Source: Candidatus Krumholzibacteriota bacterium
GTDB lineage: Bacteria; Krumholzibacteriota; Krumholzibacteriia; Krumholzibacteriales; Krumholzibacteriaceae
DNA length: 60,607 nt
Direction of reading: 5' to 3'
NCBI GenBank assembly: GCA_030667985.1
Contig: DAOUUU010000004.1
Coordinates: 1 to 60,607 of the forward strand
The notes below the pieces were generated by a model. The model was given only the letters and a program-made list of their open reading frames with translations. It had not been told where the DNA came from and made no database searches. Below are positions 8,124-60,298 of the stretch, piece by piece. Each line of letters opens with the position of its first letter. Within the stretch, counting starts at the first letter, position 1. The position numbers and the translations under genes are program-made.

Positions 8124-9647
8124 ATGGAAGCGATCTTCTCACATTTCCTCGAAGTGGCATGCTCCGTTTGCCGAGCATCCCGCGTTGGCCTGAAAGTTGT
8201 CTGGGATGGGGACGGCAGCCCGTTCGTTCTTACCGAGCGGTGGTTTGATGCCGGCGTGTATGAACATAGTATCCCTAAGCGCCCCGGCGCTCTGCAGCTG
8301 CCGCTGTTTCCCGCTGAGGGGATTCTCGTCGAGCCTGGGATTTCTCATGGGGCGCGAGCGGCCTTCGAGAAGTCACATTCGTTCTCGGCAGGATCGTATG
8401 CCGGGGCGGCGCTAATGGAGGGGGGTATCGTGGCGCCGCGGGAGAGCGTCCAGAGCGGATTGCATGATAGGGATGCATGGAACCTGTCGATGGTCGATCA
8501 CGAGTGCAAGTGTACCGGCCGGCTCGATTCATTCATGATCGAGTTTCGGGCTTTTCTCCCATATGACATAAGTGACGACCGGTGTGATACGGCGCGGAAC
8601 GTTTACCGGGTGATTCCGCTCCTCGAGTGGCTGGTTGGATCGTGCTGTCCATCGATCAGTTCACTGCGCCCCGGTGAGACTCAGCTCTCACCGCCGTTTG
8701 TCGGGGATTCCCGGTCGATCAGAGAGCTCAAGCAGCAGGTCAGGCTCGTTGCTCGTTCGGATGTCCATGTTCTCATAGAGGGAGAGAGCGGGACGGGGAA
8801 AGAGGTGATCGCGCGGAACGTCCATTCGCTGGGCCCGAGGAACCCGAGGCCTCTTGTCATACTCAACTGTCTCGAGATGCCGCCGGCGCTCATGCAGAGC
8901 GAGTTGTTCGGACACCTGAAGGGCTCGTTCACCGGCGCCTCTCGGGACAGGATCGGCCTTATAGAGAGCGCAAGCGGGGGCACGCTCTTTCTAGACGAGG
9001 TTGGAGAGATGCCGAAGGCCCTTCAGGCGATGCTGCTCAGGGTCCTGCAGGAGAAAGAGGTTAGAAGGATTGGCGAGAGCGCGAGGCGGAGGGTCGATGT
9101 GAGGTTCGTATTCGCGACGAACCGCAACTTGCGTGAACTCGTCGTAAAGAAGAGGTTCAGGCTCGATCTCTACCACAGGATGTCCAGCGTTCGGTTTCAC
9201 ATCCCGCCGCTCAGGGAGAGAAGATCCGATATTCCCCCTTTGGCGCAGTATTTCCTGGAGCTCTCTGCTCGGAAGAGCGGACACCTCGAGCGCAGCATCA
9301 CATCCGCGGCGATGAAAAGGTTTCTCGCTCACTCATGGCCGGGCAATGTGAGGGAGCTGAGAAACGAGATCGAGCGGGCGATCGCCCTTTATCCCGAAGC
9401 AAGGAAGATCGAGGCTTCCATGCTATCGCCGCATATCGGGTGTGGCGAGGTGGAGGTGTCGGACGAGGAGCTCGTCAAGCTCCACGAAGCGGTCAAGCGG
9501 CTCGAGTGTCGCATGATAGGGGAGGCCCTCGAGACCTTCCATGGAAACCGTACACGGACAGCCAATCATCTCGGGATAACCAGGCAAGGTCTGCTCAAGA
9601 AGCTCAAGCGGTACGGGATCTCTCCACCACGCCGCAACGCTGATTGA
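8124..9647 (+). CDS. Sigma-54-dependent transcriptional activator (EBP2)
   Basis: 507 residues. The N-terminal 190 residues are an input region I cannot assign (possibly a GAF-type fold). Then come the AAA+ domain with Walker A GESGTGKE (220-227), the sigma-54 contact loop GSFTGA (267-272) and Walker B GTLFLDEVGE (286-295), and a Fis-type helix-turn-helix near 470-502 (NRTRTANHLGITRQGLLKKL). All elements for remodelling RNA polymerase-sigma-54 are intact. There is no receiver domain, so it is probably controlled by ligand or partner protein. No clear Shine-Dalgarno precedes the ATG. It is divergent from the OPT transporter, and sensing of a transported compound is one plausible role. Confidence 0.88.
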   Translation: MEAIFSHFLEVACSVCRASRVGLKVVWDGDGSPFVLTERWFDAGVYEHSIPKRPGALQLPLFPAEGILVEPGISHGARAAFEKSHSFSAGSYAGAALMEGGIVAPRESVQSGLHDRDAWNLSMVDHECKCTGRLDSFMIEFRAFLPYDISDDRCDTARNVYRVIPLLEWLVGSCCPSISSLRPGETQLSPPFVGDSRSIRELKQQVRLVARSDVHVLIEGESGTGKEVIARNVHSLGPRNPRPLVILNCLEMPPALMQSELFGHLKGSFTGASRDRIGLIESASGGTLFLDEVGEMPKALQAMLLRVLQEKEVRRIGESARRRVDVRFVFATNRNLRELVVKKRFRLDLYHRMSSVRFHIPPLRERRSDIPPLAQYFLELSARKSGHLERSITSAAMKRFLAHSWPGNVRELRNEIERAIALYPEARKIEASMLSPHIGCGEVEVSDEELVKLHEAVKRLECRMIGEALETFHGNRTRTANHLGITRQGLLKKLKRYGISPPRRNAD

Positions 9648-53922: not shown

Positions 53923-54942
53923 ATGGCAAAAAGGACAGCAGACAAGAAATCTCAGGAGACATCCCAGACCAAGGACCTGATCGGCTTCGGACGCGAGGTC
54001 GTATCGCTGGAGATAGACGGGCTCAAGGAGCTCGAGCGCGGTATCGGACCGGATTTCGCGCGGGCCGTCCGGCTTCTTCTCGAATGCAGGAGTAAGATCG
54101 TTGTCTGCGGCATCGGCAAATCGGGGATCGTGGCGCGAAAGATCGCGGCGACATTCAGCAGTACTGGAACACCATCGGTCTACCTCCATCCGGTCGAGGC
54201 CGCTCACGGCGATATGGGCATGGTGACGGTGGACGACGTTTTTCTCGCGATAAGCAAGAGCGGCAGTAACGAAGAGCTCGCAAAGCTGCTCCCCTACCTG
54301 AAGGCAATAAAAGTAAAGATGATATCGATCACCGCTTCCGCTGGCTCCGGCCTCGCCGAGGCGAGCGATATCGTACTCCTGACCAATGTCGGCCGTGAGG
54401 CCTGCCCGATGGATGTGGTCCCGACGACCAGCACGACAGCGGCTATGGTGCTCGGTGACGCTCTCGCCGTCGCCGTGTTCAGAAGCCGGGATTTTGGCAA
54501 GGACGATTTCGCTAAGCTCCACCCGAGCGGCGCTCTAGGGAAAAGGCTCTTGCTCACGGTCGGTGAGCTGATGCATGGGGGAGACGATGTTCCGGTCGTC
54601 CGCGCCGATACACCCCTAAGAGAGGCGCTCGTAGAGATTGTCGACAAGAGGCTGGGCTGCACCGGAATAACCGATTCGGGCGGCAGGCTCGTCGGGATCA
54701 TAACCGACGGCGATCTGAAGCGTATACTGATCAGGAACCGCGAGGCCTTCGACGATCCGGTCGAAAGTCTCATGACACGCAATCCCCGCGCCATAACACC
54801 AGATGTGCTCGCCATAGAAGCGCTCGAGAAGATGGAGATAGAGCCCCCCAGTCCTATATCGCAGCTCTTTGTCGTGGACGAGCTGTTCCGTCCTATCGGT
54901 GTCGTTCATATCCACGACATCATCCGATCCGGCCTAAAGTAA
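53923..54942 (+). CDS. kdsD: D-arabinose-5-phosphate isomerase (SIS plus two CBS domains)
   Basis: 339 residues. The SIS isomerase domain (about 55-195) includes GIGKSGIVARKIAATFSSTG and HPVEAAHGD. Two CBS repeats follow (about 215-339), and MLTVGELMHGG-like sequence starts the first. It makes arabinose-5-phosphate from ribulose-5-phosphate for KdsA. kdsC, the phosphatase that usually comes next, is absent; a 191-base gap and a sigma-54 element come instead. Confidence 0.95.
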   Translation: MAKRTADKKSQETSQTKDLIGFGREVVSLEIDGLKELERGIGPDFARAVRLLLECRSKIVVCGIGKSGIVARKIAATFSSTGTPSVYLHPVEAAHGDMGMVTVDDVFLAISKSGSNEELAKLLPYLKAIKVKMISITASAGSGLAEASDIVLLTNVGREACPMDVVPTTSTTAAMVLGDALAVAVFRSRDFGKDDFAKLHPSGALGKRLLLTVGELMHGGDDVPVVRADTPLREALVEIVDKRLGCTGITDSGGRLVGIITDGDLKRILIRNREAFDDPVESLMTRNPRAITPDVLAIEALEKMEIEPPSPISQLFVVDELFRPIGVVHIHDIIRSGLK

Positions 54943-54966
54943 CCCTCCGCAGACACTTACATCAGT

Positions 54967-54981
54967 TGGCATAGAGATTGC
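54967..54981 (+). promoter_or_regulatory. Sigma-54 (-24/-12) promoter of the lpxL-lptC-lptB-rpoN operon
   Basis: TGGCAT-AGAGA-TTGC followed by T: it agrees with TGGCAY-N5-TTGCW at every position. The start would be near 54993, giving a leader of about 140 bases to the lpxL GTG at 55134. The gap before lpxL shows no terminator after kdsD, so the operon may also receive read-through. The operon includes rpoN itself. Confidence 0.75.
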
Positions 54982-55133
54982 TTGACTGCTATTCGCCCCT
55001 ATGGTACATGATGAAGTGTGACAAGGATTTTGGCGTTTTTTTCAGCACTGTGGCCATTATATGAGACACAAGGTCTCGAGAAACAGAGGGAGATGGTGTT
55101 TCTGTCCGAAACAAGGTGGGTGGAGGAGGAGGG

Positions 55134-56030
55134 GTGAAGAGGAAACTCCGCAGATGGCTGGCCCAGCTCCTTGTGAAAACACTGATCATGGTAACTCGCA
55201 TCATGCCGAGACGTGCTGGACTCGCGCTGTTCTCTCGGGCCGGAGCGGCCGCATTCAGGTTTTATCCAAAGGATAGGGAGCGCACGCTCGAGAATCTCGG
55301 GCTCGCCTTTCCCGATACGGATCCTATGATCGTCAGGGCAATGGCGAAGGGGTCCTTCGCAGCCCTTGGGAGCAACGCATTCGATGCGCTAAGACTCACA
55401 TATCTGAAGCCCGGGCGAGTGCTCGAGCTATGTTCGTTCGACGGCGAGCATCATCTGAAGGGGGCATTGGAGCGTGGAAGGGGCGTTATCTGTCTCTCGG
55501 GACATATCGGGTGTTGGGAGTTGATGGGCGGATATTTGTCAGCGAAGGGGTACCGTGTGAACGTCATCGCTCGGGACTTGCATGACGAGAGGATGAATGA
55601 CATACTCGTCAATATGAGGCTTCGCCACGGAATCGTCTCGATACCTAGAGGATCCGGCGCCGTAGCGGGGTACAGGGCGTTGAAACGCGGCGAGATACTC
55701 GGGATGCTGATAGATCAAGACATAGATGTGGACGGTATAATGGTTCCCTTCTTCGGGGTTCCGGCCCACACGCCGAGAGGCGCCGCCGTTTTCGCGTTGA
55801 GGAGCGGGGCGGAAATCGTTCCGATGGCTGTTTATATGCAGCCGGGCGGAGAGCACAGGATCATGATCCTTTCCCCTCTCGAGTTTCCGTCCGAGGAACT
55901 CGGCGAGCAAGAGAGGATCGATGAACTGACCGAGCGCTGCAGCGAGGCGCTGGAGAGATTGATAAGGATCTATCCCCAGCAATGGGTCTGGTTTCACGAC
56001 AGGTGGAGGCGGAGCGGACAGGAGTCATGA
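55134..56030 (+). CDS. LpxL/LpxM-family lipid A (Kdo-dependent) acyltransferase
   Basis: 298 residues from a GTG preceded by GGAGGAGG at 55122-55129. An N-terminal membrane segment anchors it. The HX4(D/E) catalytic motif is GHIGCWE, and IPRGSGAVAGYRALKRGEILGML and DGIMVPFFGVPAHTPRGAAV are typical of the family. It adds a secondary acyl chain to lipid A. It is slightly shorter than LpxL (about 306). Its stop overlaps the lptC start (ATGA). Specificity for lauroyl, myristoyl or another chain cannot be read. Confidence 0.9.
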   Translation: MKRKLRRWLAQLLVKTLIMVTRIMPRRAGLALFSRAGAAAFRFYPKDRERTLENLGLAFPDTDPMIVRAMAKGSFAALGSNAFDALRLTYLKPGRVLELCSFDGEHHLKGALERGRGVICLSGHIGCWELMGGYLSAKGYRVNVIARDLHDERMNDILVNMRLRHGIVSIPRGSGAVAGYRALKRGEILGMLIDQDIDVDGIMVPFFGVPAHTPRGAAVFALRSGAEIVPMAVYMQPGGEHRIMILSPLEFPSEELGEQERIDELTERCSEALERLIRIYPQQWVWFHDRWRRSGQES

Positions 56031-56629
56031 GGAGAGAGTCGATAATAAGATACATCGTGCCGGTCATGATGCTTGCCATGGTAATTTCCTGCGAAAGCAT
56101 CGATAACAAGGGACGGTCCATAGGCGCCGATGATATACCAGATCAGGAGTTCACCGATTTTACGACCGTAGAGAGCGATTCGGGCGTAGTAAAATGGGTT
56201 CTTTCCGCTCCCGTCGCCAGGGTGTACAACGCGAGCAAGCTACTGGTAACCGACGATCCGAGGATCGAGTTCTACAACGAGGATGGATCGCTCGCTTCGG
56301 TGTTGATCGCCGAGAAGGGTGAATACAATCAGGTCACTCACGATCTCACCGCTCTCGGATCGGTAGTCGTGACGAGCGCCGAGGGGTACAAGCTGGAGAC
56401 CGAGAGCCTCGTCTGGGTGGAGACGGTCGAGGAGATCCACACTGAGGACTTCGTGCGCTTCACCAAGGGAGAGGATGTATTGACAGGGTACGGATTCCAG
56501 AGCGACCCGAATCTCGAGAACGTAGAGATCTTCAGGGATGTCAAAGTGTTCCTGAGGGATCAAGAGGGCTTCGTCGATGAAGAGGTCAGGAAAGAGACCG
56601 AAGAGAGAGAGGGGAGCAAAGATGAGTGA
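56027..56629 (+). CDS. lptC: LPS export ABC transporter periplasmic protein LptC
   Basis: 200 residues from ATG 56027 with AGGAG upstream. A membrane or lipoprotein-like N-terminus (LAMVISC, Cys near 24) precedes the beta-jellyroll strands about 50-160 ([32 protein letters not shown]) of the LptC/OstA fold. It receives LPS from the LptBFG pump. lptA, normally next, is not between lptC and lptB. The C-terminus is highly acidic ([12 protein letters not shown]). Confidence 0.85.
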
Positions 56630-57377
56630 TTCCCCTGCTTCTGTGACCGGAAACTCCACTGGACTCTCATGCGACGGCCTCGTCAAGGTGTACGGAAAGA
56701 GGCGAGTGGTCGACGATGTCTCCTTCAGGGTAAACAGGGGTGAGGTCGTAGGTCTTCTGGGGCCGAACGGAGCCGGCAAGACGACCTGTTTCTATATGCT
56801 CGTAGGCATGATCCGGCCGGAAGAGGGGAGTGTGACCCTCGACGGTGAGGAGTTGAAGGATCTGCCTATGTACAAACGGGCGCGGAAGGGTATCGGATAT
56901 CTTCCTCAGGAGGCGAGTGTTTTCAGGCGAATGACGGTCGAACAGAATCTTCTCGCGATACTCGAGACCCTGTCCCTGTCGAAACAGCAACGGAATGAGA
57001 GGCTGGAAAACCTACTCAAGGAACTCAATATAGAGCATCTTCGCAAGAGCTTCGGATATCAGCTCTCCGGAGGAGAGCGTAGGCGTGTCGAGATAACGAG
57101 GTCGCTTGTTACAGAACCTTCTTTTATGCTCATGGACGAGCCCTTCGCCGGAATCGATCCGATTGCGGTTCAGGATCTGCAGACGATAGTCGGCGATCTC
57201 CGGCGCCGCGGACTGGGCGTCCTCATCACCGATCATAATGTAAGGGAAACATTGTCAATAACCGACAGAGCGTATATCTTGTACGAGGGGAGCATAAAGC
57301 GAACCGGGACGTCGGATGAGCTCGCATCGGACCCTGTAGTCAGGGAGATCTATCTGGGAGAAGCGTTTCGCCTGTAG
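56622..57377 (+). CDS. lptB: LPS export ATP-binding protein LptB
   Basis: 251 residues from ATG 56622 with GGGGAG upstream. Walker A is GPNGAGKT, the signature LSGGERRR, Walker B and switch [13 protein letters not shown], then [11 protein letters not shown]. It powers LPS extraction from the inner membrane with LptF and LptG, which lie elsewhere. It overlaps lptC by eight bases. Confidence 0.96.
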
Positions 57378-57395: not shown

Positions 57396-58793
57396 ATGGA
57401 TATGAAGCTCGGACAGTATATGCGCCAGACACAGCGGCTCGTCATGACGCCGCGGCTGCAGCAGGCATTGAAACTTTTGCAGATGCCGACCCAGGAGCTC
57501 CAGCAGGTGCTCAAACAGGAGATCCTCCAGAATCCCCTTCTCGAAGAGATTGACGAGGAAGTCGAGGAGACTATCGAAGACGAAGAGTCGGAAGAGGAAG
57601 ACGAAGACAAAGACAAAGATGAGATCGATTGGGACGACTACTTCGAGACAGGGTTCGGGTTGGGGAGCGGTTTCGCTGAGGAGGAGGAGAGGGAGGAGTT
57701 TCTAGAGCGGGTCCCCGTCGCAAAGCAGAGCTTTTCCGATTTCATGATGAGCCAGCTCAGGCTCGCGACCGACGACGAGCAGGATCTCGAGATCGGCGAG
57801 TACCTGATAGGAAGCCTCGACGACTCGGGCTATCTCACCTGCCCTCTCAAGGAAGTAGCCGACACATTCGGCGTTGCAGAGGAGAGGGTGGAGGTCGTGC
57901 TCAAGATCATCCAGACATTCGAGCCGTCCGGAGTGGGGGCGCGTAATCTGAAGGAATGCCTTCTCATGCAGCTAGCGACGAAGGATCTCCTCGATACGGT
58001 CGCGGCCCGTATCGTCGAGAATCACTTCGATGAGTTCAAACAGAAGAAATATCTCGATATCAGCAAGAAGCTCAAGATCTCGCTCAAGGAGATACAGGAA
58101 CAGGCAAAGGTTATAGGAACGCTCAATCCGAAACCCGGTCTCGATATTATCGCTGACGAGCCGAAGTATGTGATACCCGATCTTATAGTGGAGCGAGTGG
58201 GGGAAAAATATGTGGTTTTTCTCAACGATCGGAACATCCCGCGTCTCAGGATCAGCCAATCGTACCGCAATGAACTGCAGCGCAACCCCCGGATCAGCAC
58301 CGAGACGAAGGATTTCATCCAGGGGCGGCTCAAGAACGCCAAATGGCTGATCCAGACGATCGAACAGCGCAGGCGTACGATGATCAAGGTGATGGAGAGC
58401 ATAGTGGAGGAACAGCGGGATTTCTTCGATCATGGCGCGGTCCACATGAGACCCCTCACGCTTCAGCAAGTAGCGAGCAAGATAAGCATGCATGAGTCGA
58501 CTGTAAGCCGGGTTACGACAAATAAATACGTCCAAACACCCCGCGGCGTCTACGAGCTCAAGTTCTTTTTCGGCTCGGCTCTGGGAACCCAGTCGGGGGA
58601 CGAGGTCTCCGCGAAGAGCGCAAAGATCCGGATCAGGGAGATCATAGAGAATGAAGATTCCAAGAAGCCGTTGAGCGATCAGAAGATTGCGGATATACTA
58701 AAGAAGGACGGACTGATCATTGCGCGGCGTACTGTCGCCAAGTATCGAGAACAGCTTGGCGTACTTCCTGCTAGACATAGGAAACAGTACTGA
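57396..58793 (+). CDS. rpoN: RNA polymerase sigma-54 factor
   Basis: 465 residues. Region I is the Gln/Leu-rich activator-interacting part (LQQALKLLQMPTQELQQVLK), region II is acidic (EEDEDKDKDEIDWDDYFE), then the core-binding domain, a helix-turn-helix (TLQQVASKISMHESTVSRV) and the RpoN box ARRTVAKYRE that reads the -24 element. All parts are complete. It follows lptB by 18 bases in an operon whose promoter looks sigma-54 dependent. The start could also be the ATG at 57402. Confidence 0.97.
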   Translation: MDMKLGQYMRQTQRLVMTPRLQQALKLLQMPTQELQQVLKQEILQNPLLEEIDEEVEETIEDEESEEEDEDKDKDEIDWDDYFETGFGLGSGFAEEEEREEFLERVPVAKQSFSDFMMSQLRLATDDEQDLEIGEYLIGSLDDSGYLTCPLKEVADTFGVAEERVEVVLKIIQTFEPSGVGARNLKECLLMQLATKDLLDTVAARIVENHFDEFKQKKYLDISKKLKISLKEIQEQAKVIGTLNPKPGLDIIADEPKYVIPDLIVERVGEKYVVFLNDRNIPRLRISQSYRNELQRNPRISTETKDFIQGRLKNAKWLIQTIEQRRRTMIKVMESIVEEQRDFFDHGAVHMRPLTLQQVASKISMHESTVSRVTTNKYVQTPRGVYELKFFFGSALGTQSGDEVSAKSAKIRIREIIENEDSKKPLSDQKIADILKKDGLIIARRTVAKYREQLGVLPARHRKQY

Positions 58794-58826
58794 TCCGAGA
58801 AGTACTTGTTTTACAAGAGACGATAC

Positions 58827-59756
58827 ATGACATTACAGACTGAGTCCCGCCGCTCGAACAGATTGCCCCACTGGCTGCGGAGGCGGATACCTACCCTCGC
58901 CGAGTGCAGCCTGGTAGAGAGCACGGTCAAGAAACACGATCTCCATACGATATGCCGTGAGGCGCTGTGCCCCAACAGAGCCGAATGTTACTCAAAGGGT
59001 AAGGCGACATTCATCATTCTTGGTGACATCTGCACGAGGGGATGCCGTTTCTGTTCGGTAAAAAAGGGCGTGCCCTCCCTTCCCATGGAGGAGGAGGCCG
59101 GGAGCATAGCCCTTGCTGTGGATGAACTCGGTCTGAAGCATGTCATCGTGACATCAGTAACACGAGACGACCTGCCGGACGGTGGAAGCGGTCATTACGC
59201 CGCGGTGATACGTGCGCTCAAAGCGCTGGATCCCCCTCCTACAGTGGAGGTGCTTGTTCCCGATTTTGGTGGGAACGAAAGGGCGGCGAAGACCGTATTA
59301 CAAGCAGGTCCCGATATCTTTTCTCACAACATGGAGACCGTCAGGCGATTGTATCCGGAATTGAGGAGAGGCGCCGAATACGACAGGTCGCTTCTCCTTT
59401 TGGCCAATGCAAAGCGGGAAAACGAGGAGGTGATGACGAAGTCAGCAGTGATTCTCGGGTTGGGAGAGAATCGCAGGGAGATCCGTGTGCTCTTCGAGGA
59501 TCTCCGTAAAGCCGATTGCGATTTCCTGGCCGTCGGCCAGTACCTGCGCCCGGGAATGGATCAGGTGCCGGTTTCAGAGTATGTTCAGCCGGATCTTTTC
59601 TGCATCCTCGAAAAGGAAGCGTACAGATTGGGGTTTCTTCAGGTAACTTCAGGACCTCTTGTGCGCAGCTCCTATCAGGATATCCGTATAGACGATTTCC
59701 GGCCGGACCGGTGCCATACTGGTGATTCAAGCGTTGCGAGAAGGAGTGTGCCATGA
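58827..59756 (+). CDS. lipA: Lipoyl synthase
   Basis: 309 residues from ATG 58827; a TTG at 58806 is also open, and neither has a strong Shine-Dalgarno. The auxiliary cluster motif CREALCPNRAEC (CX4CX5C) and the radical SAM motif CTRGCRFC are both intact. It inserts sulphur into octanoyl groups of lipoyl domains. lipB is not nearby, and its place between rpoN and hpf is unusual. Its stop overlaps the hpf start (ATGA). Confidence 0.95.
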   Translation: MTLQTESRRSNRLPHWLRRRIPTLAECSLVESTVKKHDLHTICREALCPNRAECYSKGKATFIILGDICTRGCRFCSVKKGVPSLPMEEEAGSIALAVDELGLKHVIVTSVTRDDLPDGGSGHYAAVIRALKALDPPPTVEVLVPDFGGNERAAKTVLQAGPDIFSHNMETVRRLYPELRRGAEYDRSLLLLANAKRENEEVMTKSAVILGLGENRREIRVLFEDLRKADCDFLAVGQYLRPGMDQVPVSEYVQPDLFCILEKEAYRLGFLQVTSGPLVRSSYQDIRIDDFRPDRCHTGDSSVARRSVP

Positions 59757-60298
59757 AGCTGACAACGACAGCTAGACATTTCGAAGCCAGCCCCGAATTG
59801 TTGGATCATGCAGAGCAGAGGCTCGTCAAGCTCAAACGATTCTTTGATCATATTCTGCATGTTGATGTCATTATGTCTGTAGAGAATTTCAGGAATATCG
59901 CAGAGGTGAAAGTACATGTGAACGGCCATGATTTCACTTCGAAGGAAGAGTCGAAAGATATGATTCTTTCGGTAGACAAGGCCGCAAAAAATCTGGAGAG
60001 ACAGATGAAGAAATTCAAGGGCAAGATCATCTCAAATCATCATAAACCGAGGCCGGGCGGGGTCATCGAGTTCCCCGAGGAGATAGTCATAGATTCCGGC
60101 AGTGTCGGAAAAGAGGAGTTGGAGATCCTGGAGAACGTTCCGCGAGAGGTTCCGGACATCAGTGTCGAAGAGGCAATTATCCAGATGGAAGACAAAGAGG
60201 ATCATTTTCTTCTTTTCAATGAGAGGAATTCGGGTAAACTAAAACTTGTCTATAAACGCCCCGATGGTCACTACGGAGTGATCAAGACTTCGGATTGA
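59753..60298 (+). CDS. hpf: Ribosome hibernation promoting factor, long form
   Basis: 181 residues, the long-form length. The N-terminal domain (about 1-100: TTTARHFEASPELLDHAEQR, KVHVNGHDFTSKEE) binds the 30S subunit. The C-terminal domain (about 128-181: VEEAIIQMEDKEDHFLLFNE, YKRPDGHYGVI) dimerises ribosomes to 100S. Position after rpoN and before hprK is a conserved neighbourhood. Confidence 0.95.
   Translation: MKLTTTARHFEASPELLDHAEQRLVKLKRFFDHILHVDVIMSVENFRNIAEVKVHVNGHDFTSKEESKDMILSVDKAAKNLERQMKKFKGKIISNHHKPRPGGVIEFPEEIVIDSGSVGKEELEILENVPREVPDISVEEAIIQMEDKEDHFLLFNERNSGKLKLVYKRPDGHYGVIKTSD

Follow-up and report, generated by a model that had tools for sequence, protein, structure and literature searches.

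Genes for sigma-54 adjoin LPS-export genes in most diderm bacteria, and the reason for this linkage, which is itself already known, is an old open question (PMC3162934). The window analysed here, a stretch of 60,607 nucleotides from a Candidatus Krumholzibacteriota bacterium, carries such a cluster, lpxL-lptC-lptB-rpoN, and an earlier note made from the sequence had proposed that a sigma-54 promoter lies ahead of it and drives it. The questions raised by this locus are whether sigma-54 regulates the operon that encodes it and, if it does, in which direction.

The operon and the sigma-54 element ahead of it

The names lpxL, lptC, lptB and rpoN were all borne out by profile matches (Table 1), and a profile check identified the upstream gene as a KdsD-type SIS/CBS isomerase. 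RpoN has all three sigma-54 domains (activator-interacting, core-binding and DNA-binding). The lpxL frame is open from 55116; the GTG at 55134, which is preceded by a GGAGGAGG ribosome site, is the preferred start, and given this start the gap ahead of the gene is 191 bases, as had been described. The overlaps of 4 and 8 bases within the operon and the 18-base gap ahead of rpoN were also correct. The statement that the operon ends in rpoN was wrong, as lipA (58806/58821-59756) and an hpf-type gene follow it. The presence of lipA between rpoN and hpf was a feature of families f1 and f2 only; the remaining families of the class showed no lipA at that place.

Table 1. Positions of promoter elements, putative start sites and genes in the window.
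Feature	Position	Strand	Basis
Sigma-54 -24/-12 element TTGGCATAGAGATTGCT	54966-54982	+	GG at 54968-54969, GC at 54980-54981; matrix score and conservation
Putative sigma-54 transcription start	54993	+	12 nt past the C of the -12 GC; element geometry only
Sigma-70 -35 element TTGACT	54982-54987	+	First T is the last T of the sigma-54 element; conserved offset
Extended -10 element TGG-TACATG	55002-55010	+	-10 hexamer at 55005-55010, 17 bp past the -35
Putative sigma-70 transcription start	near 55016-55018	+	Element geometry only
lpxL-type lipid A acyltransferase	55134-56030	+	PF03279, E 9e-47; orthologues in place in relatives
lptC	56027-56629	+	TIGR04409 above cut-off
lptB	56622-57377	+	TIGR04406 above cut-off
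rpoN (sigma-54)	57396-58793	+	PF00309, PF04963, PF04552; TIGR02395
lipA (lipoyl synthase), downstream part of operon	58821-59756	+	TIGR00510 above cut-off
hpf, long-type ribosome hibernation factor	59753-60298	+	PF02482 and PF16321; TIGR00741

The sigma-54 element sits between kdsD, which ends at 54942, and lpxL. The core match that had been claimed, TGGCATAGAGATTGCT, is present at 54967-54982 with the right -24/-12 spacing (TGGC-N7-TTGC, with the GG and GC correctly spaced and in consensus context); the interval first given for it, 54967-54981, had the correct start and missed the final T at 54982. On an approximate sigma-54 weight matrix based on the published consensus, whose scores are relative only, the element scored 17.6 bits where the maximum is 21.7, against 12.5 bits for the runner-up on either strand of the 60-kb window. 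Markov-1 random sequence of matched composition would be expected to produce a score this high about 0.06 times per 60 kb when both strands are counted; for the coding strand of the intergenic gap the figure is about 0.0001. The 16-mer TGGCAYNNNNNTTGCT has only three occurrences in the 2.5-Mb genome. A chance match can draw on the expectation of one such score per approximately 1 Mb of random sequence, both strands counted, but is refuted by the conservation of the element at the same junction across the phylum and in other phyla, and we consider its probability to be negligible.

Conservation of the junction and the adjoining sigma-70 elements

RpoN was found in 58 class genomes and the upstream regions were compared, which gave 49 readable junctions and nine that were unreadable (contig ends). 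A sigma-54 site lies ahead of the first operon gene (lpxL or lptC) in 45 of the 49 readable junctions, so that conservation upstream of lpxL in relatives, the test named in the earlier note, was observed. In three of the four exceptions (L103, L106 and L114) kdsD abuts lpxL with no intergenic gap, leaving no room for a promoter, and in the fourth (L088) lpxL is truncated. The gene upstream varies, being kdsD, a permease-type gene in one genus or a methylase-type gene in another family, and despite this a core of approximately 45 bp is unchanged.

Apparent loss of the site at rpoN in L083, L087, L082, L068, L072 and L098 was rejected as it was a product of scaffold gaps or contig ends, the site being recovered with lpxL or lptC on another piece. 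L083 and L087 are in one-contig assemblies (G036 and G042) in which runs of N join lptC to unrelated DNA, representing scaffold errors, and lpxL with its promoter region (the composite promoter described below) is located elsewhere in the assembly.

Alignment of the class sites revealed further conserved blocks downstream of the sigma-54 element. The aligned sites had been chosen by sigma-54 score alone, and the -35 and -10 blocks had no role in their selection. TTGAC was found exactly, at a fixed offset from the sigma-54 element, in 37 of 45 sites, and the mean match to TTGACA at the -35 offset was 5.09 of 6 positions, versus 1.47 ± 0.30 at other offsets (45 sites). In the 35 sites outside family f5, the mean match to TATAAT at the -10 offset was 3.69 of 6, versus 1.52 ± 0.38 elsewhere; the TA of the -10 was present in 33 of these sites, exactly 17 bp past the -35, and the T and G of an extended -10 were present in 26 and 22 of them, respectively. 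The spacer columns carried near-zero information, which argues that the conservation of the -35 and -10 is not simple sequence inheritance. As a control, 14 other sigma-54-like sites in the same genomes, several of which precede lipoprotein or SPFH genes, were examined and only one was followed by TGAC. Together, these alignments indicated conservation of a single unit, made up of a sigma-54 site and, fused to it, a predicted sigma-70 -35/-10 promoter with a fixed 17-bp spacing. In the window this promoter, TTGACT-17-TACATG, matches five of six positions at the -35 and three of six at the -10, plus the extended -10, and those of relatives are stronger. The sigma-54 site falls inside the footprint of the sigma-70 holoenzyme, with one base common to the end of the -12 and the -35.

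Family f5 (L100-L115) has a -12 box of the form NTGCT throughout, with C, G or A in place of the first T; its TTGACG is mostly retained and its -10 at 17 bp is weak or absent. The lone control site with TTGAC (L174, G027:C241) is also from family f5 and lies before a gene for a MglA-like GTPase, about 20-25 kb from rpoN; the 16-mer of L174 occurs at a similar distance from rpoN at G031:C32:142116.

The composite pattern TGGCAY-N5-TTGCTTGAC-N18-TA was then searched in 289 genomes. There was a single occurrence in each of 27 Krumholzibacteriota genomes, and the pattern was present in two of 209 genomes of other phyla, both times between kdsD and lpxL-lptC-lptB-rpoN. The phylum of one of these outside matches comprised seven genomes, all of which have exactly one sigma-54/-35 match, directly after kdsD, with the contig extending to lpxL and lptC in six of them; for the other outside match, only one of five genomes in its phylum had the pattern. 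In a third lineage (G213) this junction carries TTGGCATAGTATATGCTTGACA-N17-TAACAT. In several more phyla a sigma-54-like site precedes lptC or lpxL with no -35 fused to it, and no sigma-54 site was found in a record named Eisenbacteria (L122) with the same gene order. By these matches, the predicted fused element is kept across Krumholzibacteriota and in at least three neighbouring lineages.

Two readings in which only one of the sigma factors acts here were weighed against these data. The view of the earlier note, a pure sigma-54 promoter beside which the TTGAC and TATA-like sequences are incidental, agrees with the conservation of the site and with the weak -10 of family f5; we judge it very improbable given the frequency of TTGAC at the class sites, the -10 at 17 bp in four phylum-level lineages and the rarity of TGAC at the control sites, and it would also leave essential LPS-export genes wholly dependent on an activator. 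A pure sigma-70 promoter, with TGGCAY-N5-TTGC being the site of another regulator, is improbable as well: the sigma-70 elements are good and the extended -10 is frequent, but invariant bases separated by a variable gap of 4-5 bases are exactly what sigma-54 recognises, and sigma-54 is itself a product of the operon.

Proposed direction of control at the composite promoter

Conservation gives strong support to an action of sigma-54 at the start of the operon that encodes it, and because the fused element is conserved across lineages at this junction, sigma-54 very probably controls its own production. This much of the original proposal held, based on the conservation of the site. The accompanying picture of a simple sigma-54 promoter driving the operon was incomplete, as a sigma-70 -35/-10 is fused to the site and no conserved upstream enhancer was found. 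Comparison of the conserved junctions did not find a shared upstream enhancer; the only common upstream words were kdsD codons, and enriched words were for this reason rejected as a candidate enhancer, with lineage-specific enhancers being possible. Since the neighbouring gene changes, the core stays and no upstream word is shared, an enhancer would not be part of the conserved unit. The fused sigma-70 promoter and the lack of a conserved upstream enhancer suggested that sigma-54 may repress, rather than drive, the operon.

We propose, at what we consider to be about an even chance, that this is a composite promoter at which sigma-70 drives the operon and a closed sigma-54 complex occludes it, in negative autoregulation. 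The sigma-70 promoter, TTGACT-17 bp-TACATG with an extended -10, would supply the essential LPS-export genes and sigma-54, and sigma-54 holoenzyme, stably bound yet closed without an activator, would cover the -35. At high levels of sigma-54, this closed complex would exclude the sigma-70 holoenzyme and expression of the sigma-54 operon would fall. The bound complex could also be made to transcribe by an active enhancer-binding ATPase.

Both sets of elements, their fixed geometry and their conservation at the operon are present in the sequence itself; binding, mutual exclusion and the direction of control are what we infer from them. The base common to the -12 and the -35 implies that the two holoenzymes could not occupy the composite promoter together. 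No activator is needed for sigma-54 holoenzyme to form a stable closed complex, and the default effect of sigma-54 should thus be to block the sigma-70 promoter. The absence of a shared upstream enhancer leans towards occlusion and is no proof of it. Against occlusion, the -10 of the window (TACATG) has only three of six matches, and a functional enhancer may be neither conserved nor upstream. In family f5 the sigma-54 site (as NTGC) and TTGAC are retained next to a weak -10, a combination that pure occlusion does not predict and that is explained by neither occlusion nor activation.

The genome encodes approximately 15 clear enhancer-binding ATPases, which makes activation possible. In the activating version of the same composite promoter, sigma-70 would provide a basal level and an enhancer-binding protein would activate through sigma-54 in response to a signal, and the resulting positive autoregulation would be coupled to LPS export. 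We regard this as plausible at well short of even chances. Consistent with it are the near-consensus -24/-12 element and the number of activators, the inference of rpoN autoregulation through sigma-54 promoters in several classes in a 2025 survey (PMC12316311), and the link of sigma-54 to LPS and envelope genes (PMC3162934). It is weakened by the lack of a conserved upstream enhancer, by the unchanged core behind upstream genes that differ among families, and by the precise fusion to the -35, which activation does not need.

Extending the occlusion proposal, we speculate, a little short of evens, that sigma-54 is mainly a DNA-bound repressor in several phyla, where its closed, activator-free holoenzyme would set the level of its own operon and so tie LPS acylation and export to the pool of free sigma-54. 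The composite promoter would then be a concrete link between the adjoining genes, with the amount of free sigma-54 able to set LPS export. If true, sigma-54 occlusion would here have been conserved in evolution; such a role has been proposed as pervasive and is documented at few promoters (PMC4551910).

Comparison with known systems and minor observations

Autoregulation of rpoN in several groups, rpoN-LPS linkage and overlapping sigma-54/sigma-70 promoters have each been known or inferred before. Sigma-54 represses overlapping sigma-70 promoters in E. coli, both in vitro and in vivo (PMC4551910), and repression of this type has been described for gonococcal pilE (cited in PMC6755734). At pilE and at E. 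coli argT, chaC, mdfA and patA, as here, a sigma-54 site overlaps the footprint of sigma-70 RNA polymerase, and repression there is by binding competition; those targets are unrelated genes in single species, whereas here the target is rpoN itself, with a geometry fixed to the base and conserved across phyla. Sigma-54 likewise acts on the promoter of its own gene at autoregulated rpoN promoters in the 2025 survey (PMC12316311), in R. leguminosarum, whose rpoN is negatively autoregulated (cited in PMC3538637), and at prxS-rpoN2 of R. etli and M. loti. Unlike the operon here, these cases, as described in the text available, have separate sigma-54 promoters (often NifA-activated) or a measured negative effect, with no lpxL-lptC-lptB and no fused sigma-70 promoter. 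The E. coli lptCAB-rpoN-hpf operon also clusters LPS-export genes, rpoN and hpf, but includes lptA, excludes lpxL and lacks a sigma-54-like site: from yrbG through rpoN, the coding strand contains zero sites of at least 9 bits. No prior description of the fused element at an LPS-rpoN operon was found in the open-licence literature, and the fused, deeply conserved form of sigma-54 occlusion and rpoN autoregulation appears to be new.

Several minor features of the junction and the window were also recorded. In genus g2 and one f4 genome (L075, L081, L086, L099 and L096), the sequence immediately upstream of the sigma-54 site contains GTTCC/ATTCC repeats with a phasing of roughly 10 bp; they are not general and are possibly a lineage-specific activator site. 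Just past the -10, a partly conserved AGTGTRAMARGGTTTTTTGCG-like stretch (55015-55050 in the window; L061, L062, L065, L084 and L157-L159, of families f1 and f7) may be an operator. An RNA leader hairpin (e.g., TGTAACA...TGTTACA in L062 and L065) was rejected, as folding was no better than that of shuffled sequences (z of about -2 to +1, most within 1), and an Rfam search of the leader stretch gave no match. Two of the approximately 15 candidate activators are encoded within the window, with PF00158 sigma-54 activator domains at 1647-2150 on the minus strand and 8700-9194 on the plus strand, 45-53 kb from the operon.

Other candidate sigma-54 sites were seen in these genomes. A family of lipoproteins of approximately 280 residues (MRKV...CS) has a conserved sigma-54-like site of the TGGCACACAG-STTGCT type 70-80 bases before the start codon (L163, L167, L168, L169 and L172, in relatives and on contig C114 of the genome of the window), and is probably a conserved member of the sigma-54 regulon. 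An SPFH-type gene (MSQFMEILEWFDxTGxEIVHR...) lies behind strong sigma-54-like sites of 17.5 and 17.9 bits at L166 (C98:2675 of the same genome) and L173.
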